Shown here: positions 8,639 through 21,868 of the stretch, piece after piece
Position numbering within the stretch: the stretch's first letter is position 1
Layout: each line of letters opens with the position of its first letter
DNA from: Acidimicrobiia bacterium
GTDB taxonomy: Bacteria; Actinomycetota; Acidimicrobiia; IMCC26256; JAGPDB01
Assembly (NCBI GenBank): GCA_018057765.1
Contig: JAGPDB010000018.1
Span: forward strand, 1-39,224
Length of the DNA stretch: 39,224 bases
Direction: 5' to 3'
Notes under the pieces: generated by a model
The model's database searches: none
What the model was told of the DNA's origin: nothing
What the model saw: only the letters and a program-made list of their open reading frames with translations
Translations under genes and position numbers: made by a program

Positions 8639-9742
8639 TTAATTTACATTAAAAGATTTAGTTATCTCGTTTAATGCAGTGGCAAAAGTTTCTATATCTT
8701 GTGGCGTTGTTGCGTAACCCCACGAAATGCGAAAAACAGATTCTGCTTCAATTGCGTTTAATCCTAAATTTATTAATGCTGGTGAAATTTCAAATTCTTC
8801 AGATCCACAAGCAGAACCAGCATGAATATTAATCTGATGACGATTAAATTCGCTAACTACAGCACTTGCTGCAATACCTTTAATCATTCCAGAAACCATA
8901 TTTGGTAGCGAATTTTTATTTTTAGAAATCATCTCACAACAATTTTCTCTAAATATGTTTATAATTTGCTCTTTGTATTTTCGGAAAATATTGATTTCAT
9001 TTTCTAATTCTTCGTAACTTAGTTTGCATAACTCGCCGAACCCTGCAATTGCTAGTGTATTTTCGTTACCACTTCTTCTGGCACGTTCCTGGGTGGCTCC
9101 TTTTATAAGAGGTTCAATATGTAAACCATGCTTCAATATTAATGCACTAATTCCTATAGGACCACCCCATGTTGATGATTCAATACTCATTGCATCGACA
9201 TTAAGCTCAGAAAAATCAATTTTGACATAACCGCTAGCATTGCGAGCATCTAAATGTATTAGACAATCTTCTGATTTAGTTTTGATATTATCAATTATTT
9301 CTTTTAGATCAAAAATATCACCGGTATCGGGATGAGCATAGGAAATAAATATTGCTTTTGTATTTTCGTCAATTTCATTTTCTATATTTTCAATATCAAT
9401 TATTTGGTCATCATCACATTTTATTATTTCATAAATTATTTTTGATTCAAATTTAGATGTAAGTATTTTCTTCGAATTTTCAAAATTGATTCCATAAGCA
9501 AAACTAGCAAGCGATTCAGTACTTGATGATGTGAAAATTACTTCTGATGGGCTACATCCAAAATGATTAGCTACATATTGGCGTGATTCTTCAATTTCGT
9601 AGCGAATCTTGATAGCATCATCATAAAGTCTCCTTGGATCATAAAAATCATTCCTCGAAGCAAGCTCATCGAGCATTTTTTTTCGTACATTATCCCTAAT
9701 AGGGGCACTTGAAGCATAATCTAGGTGCGTGCGATAAGTCAT
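8639..9742 (-). CDS. Cysteine desulfurase-fold protein (NifS/IscS-like) lacking the PLP lysine
   Basis: A 367-residue aminotransferase class V protein aligning along its full length with IscS/NifS. Retained: the N-terminal LDYASSAP, the phosphate-binding-type SSSTES (72-77), D165 of HLDARNASG, RRSGNENT (222-229) and the mobile cysteine C312 in SACGSEE. Lost: the invariant HK of the lysine motif, which reads SSTWGGP, so the Schiff-base lysine position is T191 and the preceding histidine is S190. The E-H pair that stacks on PLP reads E99-S100, and the NNE segment reads HPD (137-139). Classical PLP-dependent sulfur removal is therefore doubtful. The gene is divergent from the Mrp-type gene with only 30 bases between starts, which suggests a link to iron-sulfur or sulfur metabolism. 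It could be a pseudoenzyme or scaffold. Confidence 0.85.
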   Translation of the reverse strand: MTYRTHLDYASSAPIRDNVRKKMLDELASRNDFYDPRRLYDDAIKIRYEIEESRQYVANHFGCSPSEVIFTSSSTESLASFAYGINFENSKKILTSKFESKIIYEIIKCDDDQIIDIENIENEIDENTKAIFISYAHPDTGDIFDLKEIIDNIKTKSEDCLIHLDARNASGYVKIDFSELNVDAMSIESSTWGGPIGISALILKHGLHIEPLIKGATQERARRSGNENTLAIAGFGELCKLSYEELENEINIFRKYKEQIINIFRENCCEMISKNKNSLPNMVSGMIKGIAASAVVSEFNRHQINIHAGSACGSEEFEISPALINLGLNAIEAESVFRISWGYATTPQDIETFATALNEITKSFNVN

Positions 9743-9772
9743 TAGGCTTCCATCTTAGTTAACATTGATGTT

Positions 9773-10660
9773 ATGGATAACTCTCAAGATAAAAATGTAA
9801 CTTCAGGACAAGAACAAGAGATTAAATTGACTAAAAAAGGTGAAACCGCTCAAAAAGCAGCTCCACAAAAAGGTCAAGCACCTCAATCAGGTCCCAACCC
9901 TTTCAAGAACTCAAAAACTAGAGTCATAGCAGTAGCATCTGGAAAAGGTGGTGTAGGAAAATCATCATTAACTACAAATTTAGCTATAGCTTTAGCAGCT
10001 GCAGGTAAAAAAGTTGGAGCATTAGACGCTGATGTATGGGGCTTTTCGATGCCAAGAATGTTGGGTATAGATTCACCACCAGAAGTTGTTGGAGAGAAAA
10101 TCATTCCACCGGAACAACATGGTGTAAAGCTCATTTCAATGGGGTATTTTGCTAGAGAAGACCAACCTGTCATGTGGCGAGGTCCTATGCTACATAAAGC
10201 ACTTGAACAGTTTTTAACAGATGTCGAATGGGGAGAACTTGATTATCTGATAATTGATATGCCACCGGGAACTGGTGATGTTTCTCTCTCCATTGCGCAG
10301 TTCCTACCCAAGAGTGAAATGATTGTTGTAACAACACCACAAAAGGCAGCGCAGAGTGTTGCACAACGTGCAGCATTTATGGCGGAAACTGTTGATATAC
10401 ATCTAATTGGCGTTATCGAAAATATGAGCTACTTTACTGGTGACGATGGAGTTAAATATCATATTTTTGGACAAGGAGGAGGAAAACTTCTTGCTGATAA
10501 GTTAAGTATTCCATTTTTGGGAGAAGTTCCACTTGAATCTCAACTACGTATTGGTGGAGATCAAGGGATTCCTATTGTTATTAGTGATCCAGATAGTGAA
10601 TCCGCAAAAGCTATAGAAAACATTGCAAAATCAATTATTGAAAACAATGTAATGGTATAA
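9773..10660 (+). CDS. mrp: Mrp/ApbC/NBP35-family iron-sulfur carrier ATPase
   Basis: A 295-residue P-loop ATPase of the Mrp/ApbC family, implicated in iron-sulfur cluster transfer. The deviant Walker A reads ASGKGGVGKSS (about residues 56-66). Family motifs include DADVWGFSMPRMLG, MWRGPMLHKAL and IIDMPPGTGD. The N-terminus is a polar Lys/Gln-rich tail of about 45 residues, not the DUF59/MIP18 domain of longer homologues. The C-terminal CxxC of classical family members is absent: the segment after GVIENMSYFT reads GDDGVKYH. From memory, several actinobacterial Mrp proteins also lack it, so cluster binding may differ. TAACAT lies seven bases before the ATG, a possible leaderless promoter. Confidence 0.9.
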   Translation: MDNSQDKNVTSGQEQEIKLTKKGETAQKAAPQKGQAPQSGPNPFKNSKTRVIAVASGKGGVGKSSLTTNLAIALAAAGKKVGALDADVWGFSMPRMLGIDSPPEVVGEKIIPPEQHGVKLISMGYFAREDQPVMWRGPMLHKALEQFLTDVEWGELDYLIIDMPPGTGDVSLSIAQFLPKSEMIVVTTPQKAAQSVAQRAAFMAETVDIHLIGVIENMSYFTGDDGVKYHIFGQGGGKLLADKLSIPFLGEVPLESQLRIGGDQGIPIVISDPDSESAKAIENIAKSIIENNVMV

Positions 10661-10701: not shown

Positions 10702-10938
10702 ATGAGTATTGAAGTAAAAATAGGTATAATCCAACACCCACATGAAGTTGAATTGGAAATGGATATAACAGCAAAAGAACTTATGGCGACTATTAAATCT
10801 GCTGTCGATGCAGAAGAACCGTTAATATGGTTAACTTCTAAAAAAGAGAATCAAGTAGGGATTCCTGCAGCTAAAATAGCATTTGTAGAAATCAGAAATG
10901 TAGAAGAGTCTTCTAAAAAAATGGGATTCGGATCTTAG
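10702..10938 (+). CDS. DUF3107 family small protein
   Basis: A 78-residue protein with the layout of DUF3107, a family largely restricted to actinobacteria (relatives include the short Rv3208A/TB9.4 type). It begins IEVKIGIIQHPHEVELEM and ends with the conserved strand AKIAFVEIRN before a short tail. A compact alpha/beta fold is likely; the function is not known. It is preceded by a good ribosome binding site and sits between the Mrp-type ATPase and the first ArsA-like ATPase, 23 bases upstream of the latter, so it probably shares their transcript. Confidence 0.88.
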   Translation: MSIEVKIGIIQHPHEVELEMDITAKELMATIKSAVDAEEPLIWLTSKKENQVGIPAAKIAFVEIRNVEESSKKMGFGS

Positions 10939-10961
10939 GATTTAGATATTGGTTTTAAATT

Positions 10962-11855
10962 GTGGATATTGAGCAGAAATTAATATTTGTTACAGGTAAG
11001 GGCGGGGTAGGTAAATCATTTATCTGTTCCATGCTTGCACATAATTTATCATCGCTAAAAAATAAAAAAGTTTTACTTATAGAATCAGAACCGACGGGTT
11101 CATTAGCAAAATATTTTGAACATACACCCGTAGGATATGAACCTGTAGAAATATTTTCCAACATATTTCTTTGCCAAATTAACACACTAGATGCACTTAG
11201 CGAATACTTGAAACTATATGCAAAAATTCCTTCTTGGGCTAAATTTGGTCCACTTTCAAAACTCATAGATATAGTTGCCTATGGTGCTCCAGGGGTTAAA
11301 GAGATTTTAGTAGTTGGAAAAATATGTTTTGAATTTAAACAAATGTTGGAAAATAAGAGTGAATATGACTACATAATTGTAGATTCACCTTCAACAGGAC
11401 ATATATTATCGCTTTTAGATGCCCCTTGGTCATTACAGAACTTTATTTCTACTGGATTGGTTTCGAAACAAACAAAGTGGATGCGAGAAATCCTTGAAGA
11501 TAAAAATTCTTGTGGCGTTCTTGTAGTAACTTCTAGTGATGAAGTTGTTCTTAGTGAAACTAAAGAGTTAGTTGAAAAAGTTGAAGATGAAACACATAGT
11601 GATGTTATTGGTGTTTTGATTAATAAAGATGCTCAACCAATTGACGAAAACATTTTGAACCTACATGAAGAAACAATTCCACAAGTCCTAGCAAAGCAAA
11701 TTAAATATATAATAAATGAGAATATCCAAAACAGAAAAATTCTATTCTCGTTGAAGACGAAGGAGAATATGTCTTTTCCTTATATAAATAATCTTGCAAA
11801 TCCATTACGGAATATTATAAAAAATTCTAAATATTTTAGAGTTGATTCAGAATGA
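10962..11855 (+). CDS. ArsA/GET3-like ATPase, first of a tandem pair
   Basis: A 297-residue P-loop ATPase of the ArsA/Get3 group. The deviant Walker A TGKGGVGKS has the signature lysine at the first position. DYIIVDSPSTGHILSLLDAP is the switch/Walker B region typical of ArsA-like proteins. The start is GTG: the in-frame codon two positions upstream is a stop, so no earlier start exists. The gene overlaps the next ArsA-like gene by four bases (ATGA), which implies coupled translation and probably a heteromeric complex. The arrangement recalls mycobacterial Rv3679-Rv3680, adjacent ArsA-like ATPases beside a whiB gene. Substrate and role here are unknown; arsenite export is unlikely without ArsB. 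Confidence 0.88.
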   Translation: MDIEQKLIFVTGKGGVGKSFICSMLAHNLSSLKNKKVLLIESEPTGSLAKYFEHTPVGYEPVEIFSNIFLCQINTLDALSEYLKLYAKIPSWAKFGPLSKLIDIVAYGAPGVKEILVVGKICFEFKQMLENKSEYDYIIVDSPSTGHILSLLDAPWSLQNFISTGLVSKQTKWMREILEDKNSCGVLVVTSSDEVVLSETKELVEKVEDETHSDVIGVLINKDAQPIDENILNLHEETIPQVLAKQIKYIINENIQNRKILFSLKTKENMSFPYINNLANPLRNIIKNSKYFRVDSE

Positions 11856-13009
11856 GATTAATTGAATCATTATCTCAGAATCGTGTTGTGGTTACAACTG
11901 GCACAGGGGGAGTTGGCAAAACAACAGTTTCATGTTCAATGGCTATTGCACTTGCACATTCGAAAAACGCAAAAGTTTTAGTAATAACAATAGATCCGGC
12001 AAAAAGATTGGGTACAGTACTCTCTGAGCAAAATCTAGGTCATGAACCAAAGAAAATTGATCATTCTAAATTTTTTGATAATAAGATCGATGTAAAAGGT
12101 GAGTTGTACGGTGTAACTGTTGATATGTCTAAAGGTTGGGATGAACTTATAAATCGCTTTGCTGACTCTAAAGAAGATGCAACAAAAATATTGCAAAACA
12201 CTATGTATCAGAATTTAACAACTCGTTTTACACACAGTCATGACTTTATAGCAATGGATCAACTATATGAATATTACTATAGAGGTGAATATGACTATAT
12301 AATTCTTGACACTCCACCAATGAGCCAAGCACTAGATTTTTTTGATGCCCCAAAAATTATTTCAGAATTTTTCGGTGGTAAAATTATTGGACTTGTTACA
12401 TCTCCGTATCGTCTTAGCCAAACGTCAAAAAGAGCAAAAATATTTGATATAGCAAGTAAACCATTTTTTACCATTGCAAATAAGGTTTTGGGAGAAACAT
12501 TTTTAAATGATATCGGTGAATTTTTCTATCTTTTCAAAAAAATATACAGTCCATTAGTGCAACGCGCGAACGATATTAATGAGTTTTTAAAATCTGATTC
12601 ACTCGGATGCACATATATAATGAACCCATTACAATATATAGAAAAAGATTACGAAATTGTATTGTCAAAGCTATCAAGTCGTTCATTGAAAATATCGAAC
12701 ATGGTGATAAACATGCTTCCATTTAGTGATAGTGATGCAACCCTAGTAAAAGATTATATTGAATCGTCAAAAAATGAATTATTAAATAAAGCCATGAGCG
12801 AATACCTTGAAAAAGAACTAGAGATAGTTCAAGAAGTCCAGAATAGATTAAATATGGGATCTACTGGTTTTACAAATTCAGATAATTCTATAAACGATGA
12901 CCAACTAGAGGTATTCTTAGTTCCAAAATCATATGAAATTGATTTATCTATGCGTCTCACATACTTAGTAGATCTTGTTTTAGAATCTATGTCAGCAAAT
13001 AAAGATTAG
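11852..13009 (+). CDS. ArsA/GET3-like ATPase, second of a tandem pair
   Basis: A 385-residue ArsA-like ATPase overlapping the preceding paralogue by four bases. The P-loop reads TGTGGVGKTT: threonine replaces the signature lysine of the deviant Walker A (GKGGVGKT), while the second lysine is intact. The Walker B/switch region is DYIILDTPPMSQALDFFDAP. In the GET3/ArsA family the signature lysine reaches across the dimer to the other subunit's nucleotide. Its loss in one member of a tandem pair fits an asymmetric heterodimer with the first protein. It ends 18 bases before the PdtaS-type kinase gene, so the four genes from DUF3107 to the kinase may form one operon. Confidence 0.87.
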   Translation: MRLIESLSQNRVVVTTGTGGVGKTTVSCSMAIALAHSKNAKVLVITIDPAKRLGTVLSEQNLGHEPKKIDHSKFFDNKIDVKGELYGVTVDMSKGWDELINRFADSKEDATKILQNTMYQNLTTRFTHSHDFIAMDQLYEYYYRGEYDYIILDTPPMSQALDFFDAPKIISEFFGGKIIGLVTSPYRLSQTSKRAKIFDIASKPFFTIANKVLGETFLNDIGEFFYLFKKIYSPLVQRANDINEFLKSDSLGCTYIMNPLQYIEKDYEIVLSKLSSRSLKISNMVINMLPFSDSDATLVKDYIESSKNELLNKAMSEYLEKELEIVQEVQNRLNMGSTGFTNSDNSINDDQLEVFLVPKSYEIDLSMRLTYLVDLVLESMSANKD

Positions 13010-18235: not shown

Positions 18236-21200
18236 TCAATTCAACGCATCTTTTAATAATGTCTCTTGTTCAATTTCATGAACAGTTGCAGATCCAGTTG
18301 CAGGAGAAGCGCTTTCTTCACGAGCTACCAGTCTGAATCTTCGATCTGCTAATGCTTCTAGCTTTGGTAGCATATATGATGCAGCACCCATATTTTTAGG
18401 TTCTTCTTGAGCCCAAATTACTTCTTTTGAATTTGGATATAGATTCAAATTTATTGATATCAAATCAGAAGGGAATGGGAATAGCTCTTCGATTCTAATT
18501 ATTGCTATAGGAAGCTTTTCTGAATCACGACGCTCACGGAGTTCATGACCAAATTTACCTGAACAAAAAATAACTCTAGTCACTGTTGATTTATCAATTA
18601 AAGAATCATCTCCAAGTACTGGCATGAAACTGCCTTTTGTTAATGATTCGACGCTTGATTTTACAACCGGCATACGCAAATATTTTTTAGGTGTAAAAAT
18701 AACAAGTGGCTGAATTCTTTTTTCAGTCATTTGTCTTCTTAACACGTGAAAATATTGTGCTGCTGTAGTCGGGTAAACTACTCGCATATTATGATCGGCA
18801 CAAAGACTCAAGAATCTTTCAATACGAGCAGAAGAATGTTCGGGTCCTTGACCTTCATAACCATGTGGCAGAAGAAGTGTTATTGGAGAACGTTGTCCCC
18901 ACTTATCGTCAGCGACAGAAATGAATTGATCAATTATAGTTTGCGCACCATTTGCAAAATCTCCAAATTGGGCTTCCCAGAGAGTGAATGCATTTGGAGC
19001 ACAAACGCTATAGCCGTATTCAAAGCCTAATGCTGCAAATTCACTTAATACTGAATCATATATTTGTACAGGAGCCTGTTTTGGATCAAGATGTGCAAGA
19101 GGCATATAAGTATCTTCATTAACATTGTCGATTAAAACACTATGTCTCTGAGAAAAAGTTCCTCGGCGGGTATCTTGCCCAGCTAAACGAATTGGAATAC
19201 CCTCTAATAACAATGAACCAAATGCAAGCTGCTCAGCGGTAGCCCATTCGACGGATCCCGCTTCAAAATCAGTTTCATGTTTTTTGATAATCTTAACCAA
19301 CTTAGGATGTACTGTAAAAGTATCAGGCCATGAAGATAGATGATTAGAAATATTTTCCAATATAGTTTTTTCAACACCCGTGGGAATAAGATAAGCAGTT
19401 TCGCTCTTACGTCTTTCTGCTGGAAGTACTGGTTCTGCAGAGCCGCGTGTGTCTTCAAAAGCAACTTCTAGACGAGATTGGAAATCATTTAGCGATGCTT
19501 CAGCTTCTTCTACAGTTATATCTCCGCGATTGATTAGAGTTTCAGTGTATAGTTTTCTAATCGATCTTTTTTCGGCGATTAATGCATACATTATTGGCTG
19601 TGTGTAGGCTGGTTCGTCAGACTCATTATGGCCGTAGCGTCTATAGCAAATAACATCGACAACTACATCCTTAGAAAATGTTTGACGATATTCTAAAGCT
19701 AGTTTAATTACACGAAGACACGCTTCTGGGTCATCACCATTAACATGAAATATTGGAGCTTGAACCATTTTTGCAACGTCTGTTGCATAAGTTCCACTTC
19801 GACCAGAGACTGGAGATGTAGTAAATCCTAGCTGGTTATTAACCACTATATGTATAGTTCCACCTACGCTGTACCCATCAACATTGGAGAGATTAAAAGT
19901 TTCAGCAACCACACCTTGACCCGCAAATGCAGCATCACCATGTATGAGAATTGGCAGAACTGTTTTATGCTCTTTGTCACCTAAAGCATCTAATTTTGCT
20001 CTCACCATACCATCGACAACACCATCGACCGCTTCTAAATGCGAAGGATTAGATGCAAGTGTAATTTCTAGTGGCTTGCCATCTGGAGTTATATGAGTAC
20101 CAGTAGCACCTAAGTGGTATTTCACATCACCACTACCTAAAAAACTTCCAGAATCGAGTTGGCCATCGAACTCTTTGAATATCTGACCATAACTTTTGCC
20201 CATGGTGTTTGCCAAAACGTTAAGTCGGCCTCTGTGGCTCATTCCAATTACTGCTTCAGAAATAGAATTATCTACAGCTTTTGTCAATAATGTATCAAGT
20301 ATTGGGATTATTACTTCTGCGCCTTCCACTGAGAAACGTTTGTGTCCCATAAACTTAGTATGTAAGAAACGTTCGAAGGATTCTGCAGCATTTAGACGTT
20401 CTAATATTCTTTTCTTCTCTTCTAATGAAGTTTCATATTTTATGCCTTCAACGTTATCTTGAATCCATTTTTTATTTTCAGGATTTTGAATATGCATATA
20501 TTCAATACCTATAGTCCTCGAATAAGCATCACGTAATGTGCCTAAAATACTTTTCAGATCCATGCGCGATTTGCCATTAATGCCGCCTGTTGGGAATTCA
20601 CGATCTAAATCCCAAATCGATAGGCCATAATGTAAAATATCTAATTCTTCATAAGTAGATACAGGCAGTCTTCTTAGCGGATCTAAATCTGCAATCAGAT
20701 GTCCGCGAACACGGTATTGATTTATAAGTTGATACACGTTAAGTATCTTTTCGTACATCTCTATTGAAGATTCTTGTGGTCTAATATCTTTTTTCCATGA
20801 AGCTGCTTCATATGGAATTTGTAATGATTCAAATATCTCTTCATAAAAATTATGTTGGCCGGTTAACATTTCGTGAATTGTTTTTAGGAATTCACCAGAT
20901 AATGCTCCTTGAATAACACGGTGGTCATATGTTGACGTTAAGGTTAGGACCTTTGAGATACCTAGATTGGCAATTGTATCAGGATCAGCACCACCAAATT
21001 CTGCAGGATAATCAATAGAACCAGCACCTAAAATAAAACCTTGTCCAGGCATTAAACGTGGAACACTATGTACCGTGCCAATCATTCCTGGGTTTGTTAT
21101 CGTTGCAGTTGTCAAAGCAAAATCATCAGCAGTAAATTTATTAGACCTAACTTTACGAATTAGTATTTCGTAGGCTGCATAAAATTGTTGGAAAGTCATA

Positions 21201-21868
21201 TGGTTTGCATTACGGATATTTGGAACCATAAGAGTCCTTGACCCGTCTGGCTTTTGAATGTCTACAGCTAGACCAAGGTTCAAATTCTTATGGGTTATTA
21301 ATGTTGGTGTGTTTTTTTCGTCCACTCCATAACCAACATTCATGCCTGGAAATCTTTCTACAGCTCGAGCTATAGCAAAAGCTATAAGGTGGGTGAACGA
21401 AATTTTTCCACCACCATGTCTTGCTAATGAGTTATTAATAATCGTACGATTAACTTCCATTAGTTTTGCAGGTATAGAACGTACAGAAGTAGCAGTAGGT
21501 ACTTCTAATGATGCTTCCATATTTTCTACGATTTTTGCACCAACTCCTCTAATTGGTGAAGGAGTTGAGTTCTCCTCTACGGAAACCGGAGATGTTTTTT
21601 TAGACGGTGATGGTGCAACTATTTTTTGATCATTAATATGGGTATTATCAGTAGTTGTAAGGTCAGATCGAGAATCTCGGTTTGCTAAAGGTTTATAATC
21701 AGCGAAAAATTCAATCCAGCCCTCTCCAACAGAAGAAGGGTTCTGTAAATATTGTTGGTACATCTCTTCTACTAGACCAGAATTTGGTCCAAAAGCTTCA
21801 AAGTCTGAATTATGATAAGAAGCATTTGGGTTAGCTATTGAGGCTGAATTGTTTATTAGATCTGACAT
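18236..21868 (-). CDS. kgd: Multifunctional 2-oxoglutarate dehydrogenase E2/E1 (2-oxoglutarate decarboxylase)
   Basis: A 1210-residue fusion of the mycobacterial Kgd type. The N-terminal 50 residues carry the E1 start motif (FGPNSGLVEEMYQQYL). A polar linker follows (about 60-110). An E2-like acyltransferase domain (about 115-345) has YDHRVIQG (314-321), and no lipoyl domain is present. The rest is thiamine-diphosphate E1 with the GMSHRGRLNVLAN and GDAAFAGQGVVAET motifs. It converts 2-oxoglutarate to succinyl-CoA together with separate lipoyl-E2 and E3 proteins, or to succinate semialdehyde. In actinobacteria the FHA protein GarA/OdhI inhibits it; no such gene is in view. AGGA precedes the ATG by about nine bases. 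Confidence 0.96.
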   Translation of the reverse strand: MSDLINNSASIANPNASYHNSDFEAFGPNSGLVEEMYQQYLQNPSSVGEGWIEFFADYKPLANRDSRSDLTTTDNTHINDQKIVAPSPSKKTSPVSVEENSTPSPIRGVGAKIVENMEASLEVPTATSVRSIPAKLMEVNRTIINNSLARHGGGKISFTHLIAFAIARAVERFPGMNVGYGVDEKNTPTLITHKNLNLGLAVDIQKPDGSRTLMVPNIRNANHMTFQQFYAAYEILIRKVRSNKFTADDFALTTATITNPGMIGTVHSVPRLMPGQGFILGAGSIDYPAEFGGADPDTIANLGISKVLTLTSTYDHRVIQGALSGEFLKTIHEMLTGQHNFYEEIFESLQIPYEAASWKKDIRPQESSIEMYEKILNVYQLINQYRVRGHLIADLDPLRRLPVSTYEELDILHYGLSIWDLDREFPTGGINGKSRMDLKSILGTLRDAYSRTIGIEYMHIQNPENKKWIQDNVEGIKYETSLEEKKRILERLNAAESFERFLHTKFMGHKRFSVEGAEVIIPILDTLLTKAVDNSISEAVIGMSHRGRLNVLANTMGKSYGQIFKEFDGQLDSGSFLGSGDVKYHLGATGTHITPDGKPLEITLASNPSHLEAVDGVVDGMVRAKLDALGDKEHKTVLPILIHGDAAFAGQGVVAETFNLSNVDGYSVGGTIHIVVNNQLGFTTSPVSGRSGTYATDVAKMVQAPIFHVNGDDPEACLRVIKLALEYRQTFSKDVVVDVICYRRYGHNESDEPAYTQPIMYALIAEKRSIRKLYTETLINRGDITVEEAEASLNDFQSRLEVAFEDTRGSAEPVLPAERRKSETAYLIPTGVEKTILENISNHLSSWPDTFTVHPKLVKIIKKHETDFEAGSVEWATAEQLAFGSLLLEGIPIRLAGQDTRRGTFSQRHSVLIDNVNEDTYMPLAHLDPKQAPVQIYDSVLSEFAALGFEYGYSVCAPNAFTLWEAQFGDFANGAQTIIDQFISVADDKWGQRSPITLLLPHGYEGQGPEHSSARIERFLSLCADHNMRVVYPTTAAQYFHVLRRQMTEKRIQPLVIFTPKKYLRMPVVKSSVESLTKGSFMPVLGDDSLIDKSTVTRVIFCSGKFGHELRERRDSEKLPIAIIRIEELFPFPSDLISINLNLYPNSKEVIWAQEEPKNMGAASYMLPKLEALADRRFRLVAREESASPATGSATVHEIEQETLLKDALN

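Follow-up and report, generated by a model that had tools for sequence, protein, structure and literature searches.

The window analysed here is a stretch of 39,224 nucleotides from an Acidimicrobiia bacterium (assembly GCA_018057765.1, contig JAGPDB010000018.1, positions 1 to 39,224). On its minus strand, positions 8639-9742 encode a 367-amino-acid, Mrp-linked homologue of NifS and IscS without the Schiff-base lysine, as recognized from the open reading frame and profile matches. The frame starts with an ATG at 9742 and runs down to 8639 over 367 codons, none of them an internal stop. Its codon-position composition (GC1-3 of 0.43/0.36/0.19, position-1 purine content of 0.68) is the same as that of the adjoining genes, and the gene thus looks to have been kept as coding sequence. 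The Pfam family Aminotran_5 (PF00266) matches residues 6-353 with 114.8 bits, against a gathering cut-off of 21.5. Among NCBIfam models, NifS TIGR03402 ranks first with 173.7 bits, well under its cut-off of 530.75. The top PDB matches are 1ecx, several recent cysteine desulfurase entries, and 4r5f/4eb5; chains labelled IscS 2 or probable cysteine desulfurase 2 (4eb5, 4eb7, 4hvk, 4r5f) are among the better ones. We take 1ecx to be the T. maritima NifS-like protein and these four chains to be A. fulgidus IscS. Structure prediction of the window protein from a two-row alignment gave a mean pLDDT of 37.9, too low for the model to carry meaning.

An Mrp/ApbC-type ATPase of 295 amino acids is encoded divergently at 9773-10660 on the plus strand. 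Profile matches place it in the P-loop ATPase family PF10609 (310.9 bits), and it contains no CxxC motif. The two start codons are separated by 30 bp (9743-9772), where relatives carry a regulator gene. The mrp gene is followed at 10702-13009 by a DUF3107 gene and two genes for ArsA-type ATPases, which resemble mycobacterial BagA and BagB with scores under the cut-offs. Farther along, the minus strand encodes a fused 2-oxoglutarate dehydrogenase of 1210 amino acids, comprising an acyltransferase domain and E1 (18236-21868). Both the intact reading frame of 367 residues and the divergently transcribed Mrp neighbor, as described in an earlier sequence-only reading of this DNA, are borne out.

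The sequence of the window protein departs from that of PLP-dependent cysteine desulfurases at six pocket sites (S100, H137, N168, E188, S190, T191). Alignment with 75 lysine-bearing relatives shows T191 (codon 9170-9172, minus strand, as for all codons below) where E. coli IscS has its Schiff-base lysine, K206. In place of the SxHK motif, residues 188-195 read E-S-S-T-W-G-G-P, with glutamate at the serine position 188 and serine at the histidine position 190. The PLP-stacking histidine (H104 of IscS), present in 75/75 lysine-bearing relatives, is replaced by S100 (9443-9445) in the pair E99-S100. Two further PLP contacts of IscS, N155 and Q183, are replaced by H137 and N168; the first lies in the segment H137-P138-D139 (9326-9334), which aligns with N-H-E in the Mrp-linked family and N-N-E in IscS. 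Other elements are retained. D165 corresponds to the aspartate that contacts the PLP ring nitrogen (D180), the segment Q218-E-R-A-R-R-S-G-N-E-N228 (9059-9091) is kept as in the family and overlaps the likewise present R222-R223-S224-G225-N226-E227-N228-T229, and the persulfide cysteine of the mobile loop is present as C312 (8807-8809) within GSACGS. All of the residues singled out in the sequence-only reading (T191, E-S, HPD, D165, RRSGNENT and C312) are therefore present.

In E. coli IscS, desulfurase activity is absent from each of the variants H104Q, Q183E and K206A, although some PLP remains bound to K206A, which also forms adducts with cysteine (PMC9978102). Since the window protein lacks the equivalents of all three side chains, with S100, N168 and T191 in their places, its sequence makes it very unlikely to be a working PLP desulfurase. 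The same replacements support the earlier proposal of a repurposed, non-PLP protein. No alignment column gains a lysine specifically in the lysine-less family members that could compensate for the loss. Position 196 was considered as a candidate and rejected, given that lysine occurs there in 9/16 lysine-less and 29/75 lysine-bearing members.

Desulfurase activity appears to be supplied elsewhere in the host genome (G000; 1.76 Mb, 97% complete), which encodes a canonical SufS (L001, lysine motif SAHKMLG) and a canonical IscS (L002, lysine motif SGHKLGG, adjoining mnmA). It had been suggested that the genome be checked for a second, canonical SufS or IscS, and both are found, each with its lysine. 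The genome also encodes one NifU_N scaffold and two Mrp-type ATPases (E <= 1e-70).

To place the protein within a family, we used a profile, A1, built from 29 relatives, one of which is the window protein itself. Within the host's order, A1 gave 51 matches of 368.9-638.8 bits, one in each of 51 genomes out of 58, with the next match at 352.6 bits. The window protein scores 463.1 bits and matches of other types in the order score 352.6 bits or less, such that A1 separates the Mrp-linked family from IscS paralogues there. One further member, in genome G014, reaches 241 bits over a partial stretch, yet lies divergently beside an Mrp gene. A class-wide search of 296 genomes detected additional members in other orders. 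Certain loci were dropped before counting, either as fragments (L154) or as not belonging to the family or this locus (L156-L159); L198, a canonical NifS by motif and without Mrp, was removed from family counts, and two truncated sequences (L152, L153) were excluded from trees. No relatives were found in viral contigs, and a scan of genome contigs gave a single distant relative from Butyrivibrio. Searches of open-licence PubMed Central papers brought up no account of a lysine-less NifS family linked to Mrp.

Gene order is strongly conserved in this family. Mrp is adjacent and divergent in 86 of the 91 loci fetched and scored. It was not found adjacent in the other five (L123, L127, L166, L176, L198): L123 is a contig of 4.2 kb, L127 and L166 are close to the ends of their contigs, and L176 has its own Mrp about 10 kb distant. 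Hence the earlier suggestion that the protein works with the Mrp is strengthened as regards the conserved divergent order; the interaction itself is a prediction. A close relative of the window copy carrying the locus was not found, the two congeneric genomes examined (G001, G002) included. We do not interpret this absence as a sign of dispensability, since in both assemblies the aconitase gene runs off a contig end at exactly the point where the gene would be expected; in addition, G001 has a BagA-like gene at the start of its contig.

Loss of the lysine is recurrent. Among 91 family members (the window protein included, L198 excluded), the site is K in 75, T in nine, S in three, P in two and R in two; the G014 protein adds a 17th lysine-less member, with L. 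Six lysine-less members, all with T, occur in two genera of the taxonomic family f11 and four, with S or P, in the genus g12. The others are single cases (G047, G006, G052, G292, G230 and the window). In a tree built without the motif columns, the site requires eight changes; this becomes nine or eight when G014 is added, with or without the outgroup, and six if only well-supported branches are counted. Although such counts alone cannot orient the changes, loss is the natural direction because outgroup IscS and most rows carry the lysine. A tryptophan directly follows the lost lysine in 12/16 lysine-less members, including f11 loci and the g12 loci L121, L135, L136 and L146, compared to 3/73 other tree rows. 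As a correlate of lysine loss it was set aside, not being significant on independent pairs (median p 0.25).

The IscS paralogues provide a control. His-Lys is retained in 39/39 IscS paralogues of the same order, a selection drawn from 40 further loci fetched at lower-scoring A1 places (the 40th proved to be the Mrp-linked member of G014), and in the 19/19 best-scoring NifS proteins of other classes. Most of the genomes compared are fragmented draft assemblies, which might invite the explanation that a single codon was misassembled or misread. We regard this as practically excluded: six f11 genomes from two genera share T, four g12 genomes have S or P, and the paralogues from the same order invariably keep His-Lys. 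Orthologues that keep His-Lys had been named as evidence for sequencing error or strain-specific decay; such orthologues do form the majority (75/91), but they do not refute the loss, as it has recurred. Six to nine separate losses, 0/39 in IscS paralogues and purifying selection on the lysine-less members together rule out strain-specific decay as well as sequencing error.

Constraint on the lysine-less members was assessed over 65 columns, each conserved in 95% or more of the 73 rows that have the lysine. All eleven lysine-less members checked, out of the 15 besides the window and G014 proteins, keep 62-64 of these columns; in five of them (L104, L107, L121, L145, L173), the lysine is the sole conserved column lost. 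Nei-Gojobori dN/dS is 0.10 and 0.14 in two lysine-less pairs of more than 80% identity, compared to 0.09-0.21 in 17 other pairs. The lysine was thus lost with no general decay following. The C312 position is cysteine in every readable row (89/89: 73 lysine-bearing, 15 lysine-less and the window).

Erosion of the remaining pocket is graded. Lysine-less members from f11 have lost little besides the lysine and keep the other PLP ligands H100, N137, D165 and H190. In g12, the serine and histidine positions before the lysine are also lost in three of four genomes, and in G047 the stacking histidine and the second histidine are both gone. The window and G014 proteins have lost most of the pocket. 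The f11 members raise the prospect that lysine-less proteins bind PLP or PLP-cysteine non-covalently, serving as slow enzymes or as sensors of cysteine or PLP. This would agree with the residual PLP and the cysteine adducts of E. coli IscS K206A (PMC9978102). We consider it improbable all the same, and unlikely for the window copy with its six replaced pocket residues; with five different residues at the site (T, S, P, R and L), a newly acquired catalytic residue common to these proteins is also disfavored.

Lysine-bearing members have themselves diverged from IscS. The glutamine at position 168 is absent in 48/75 of them and present in 39/39 IscS paralogues, and threonine at position 226 occurs in 4/75 (absent in 71/75) versus 38/39. 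These absences favor a wider hypothesis, in which the whole Mrp-linked family, its lysine-bearing members included, would have abandoned PLP chemistry and would act as a cysteine donor completing the cluster site of a CxxC-less Mrp. With no dependence on PLP, the lysine would drift away repeatedly and the cysteine loop never. We judge this unlikely overall, albeit with a real chance of being correct.

Of all family members, the window protein has the most eroded and derived sequence. It keeps 41/65 conserved columns, including D165, Q218-E-R, R222-R223, C312, E315 and R338, and has lost 24, including H100, N137, H138, E139 and K191. Its branch measures 5.1-5.8 changes per column, with an unsure placement that warrants a warning of long-branch attraction. 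As the end branch of its Mrp measures only 0.7, acceleration has occurred mainly in the NifS-like protein. Such a pattern might be expected of a desulfurase paralogue under relaxed selection, in the course of being lost from a genome that is small and AT-rich, and with no function of consequence; the absence of the regulator gene from the site and the presence of canonical SufS and IscS would fit as well. We give this explanation roughly a one-in-several chance, and regard it as unlikely. The frame has stayed intact over 367 codons despite the divergence, with a coding-type codon-position composition, and the losses have spared the cysteine loop, QERxRR, D165 and R338. Lysine-less relatives elsewhere are, moreover, under purifying selection.

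The survival of QERxRR in full, despite loss of the protein's own pocket, has another conceivable explanation. In IscS, this segment lies near the active site of the partner subunit, and in serine palmitoyltransferase LCB1 provides a precedent for a lysine-less subunit that pairs with a catalytic partner, LCB2. The window protein might likewise pair with the lysine-bearing IscS of the host and steer or regulate it. This seems doubtful to us: the gene lies on a different contig from iscS (C18 versus C9) and is therefore not adjacent to it, and the threonine at position 226, which in IscS binds the PLP phosphate of the neighboring subunit, is rare even in lysine-bearing members of the family.

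The genes around the family offer further indications of its role. CxxC was found in 0/77 Mrps with a readable region in family loci, whereas ApbC-type Mrps use this motif for a bridging cluster (PMC8593673). Mrps without CxxC may carry no clusters at all. The N-terminal FeS_assembly_P domain was not found in the window Mrp; it is present in that of G047, which adjoins a lysine-less NifS-like gene. Loss of this domain was rejected as a correlate of lysine loss on a crude test, as the window and f11 show it but so do many lysine-bearing loci. A SufR-like winged-helix regulator is encoded between the Mrp and NifS-like genes, codirectionally with the latter, in 75 of the 86 loci with Mrp in view. 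Its three cysteines are invariant (75/75); in the L129 regulator, they are spaced C-X13-C-X32-C by hand count. This protein matches HTH_20 and, weakly, SufR TIGR02702 (22.5 bits, cut-off 178.8), and reaches no NCBIfam cut-off. The regulator was not found in the other 11 loci, in the window or in G014, where 83 bp separate the Mrp and NifS-like open frames. The nearest match in the host genome, situated elsewhere, scores 54.8 bits at 27% identity. The company of Mrp and a SufR-like regulator suggests an Fe-S role for the locus.

On this basis, our tentative preference, which we hold at somewhat less than even confidence, is that the window protein acts as a PLP-independent partner of Mrp in Fe-S and sulfur traffic, in a manner resembling the IscS of Archaeoglobus (PMC7585200). 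The protein would not itself act as a PLP-dependent desulfurase and would retain the dimeric fold as a platform. Its mobile C312 loop could pass on persulfide sulfur produced by the host SufS or IscS or, alternatively, help to coordinate a nascent cluster through its cysteine. The recipient would be either the divergently encoded Mrp, itself lacking CxxC cluster ligands, or a scaffold of the SufU/NifU_N type, and in other genomes the three-cysteine regulator probably tunes the locus to Fe-S status. This proposal draws on the conserved divergent Mrp, the invariant C312, lysine losses seen in the Mrp-linked family (16/91 plus G014) and in none of the IscS and NifS controls, the continued conservation of lysine-less members, the three invariant cysteines of the SufR-like regulator, the lack of CxxC in the readable Mrps, and the SufS, IscS and NifU_N scaffold of the host. 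Certain observations weigh against it. The ligands kept by f11 members would be needless in a fully PLP-free protein, and most relatives still have the lysine. Gene order suggests interaction with Mrp and nothing further, and Mrp also occurs in many genomes of the class that lack a member of this family. In addition, the long branch and lost columns of the window protein also fit relaxed selection.

These findings document that the one residue considered essential to cysteine desulfurases has been lost repeatedly in nature, with the remainder of the protein conserved. Sister genera offer a ready test set of paired orthologues with and without the lysine. The family bears on the mechanism of Mrp carriers that lack CxxC. 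It also bears on the inactive A. fulgidus IscS, which may be an isolated oddity or belong to a broader class. If the family as a whole proves to be a cysteine donor, the Archaeoglobus IscS-IscU arrangement would have a bacterial equivalent based on Mrp. Members of this family cannot safely be annotated as "cysteine desulfurase".

Comparison with known systems shows both likeness and difference. With class I NifS/IscS (TIGR03402, TIGR02006), the window protein shares full-length homology, D165, the QER motif, the GSxC loop and R338; in contrast to them, it has no Schiff-base lysine, stacking histidine or Asn/Gln contacts to PLP, and it scores far under their cut-offs. Its Mrp neighbor belongs to the same P-loop ATPase family as the Mrp/ApbC/Nbp35 carriers (PF10609), but lacks the CxxC that ApbC uses for its cluster (PMC8593673). 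The regulator of its relatives has the winged helix, C-terminal conserved cysteines and Fe-S gene neighborhood of SufR (TIGR02702); it differs in its score of 22.5 against 178.8 bits and in the three invariant cysteines found, and the window locus has no such gene. There is also a likeness to A. fulgidus IscS and Methanosarcina acetivorans IscS1, which are IscS-like with the catalytic lysine replaced. The former is reported to have aspartate in place of the lysine, to be inactive and to contribute a cysteine to the coordination of a [2Fe-2S] cluster on IscU (PMC7585200). The window protein has the same combination of a replaced lysine and a retained loop cysteine. However, these proteins are archaeal and have been described in an iscSU setting, whereas the family of the window protein is bacterial and has Mrp as its neighbor, along with a SufR-like regulator in relatives. 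A further difference is that the lysine has been lost several separate times inside one family, its replacement being T, S, P, R or L.
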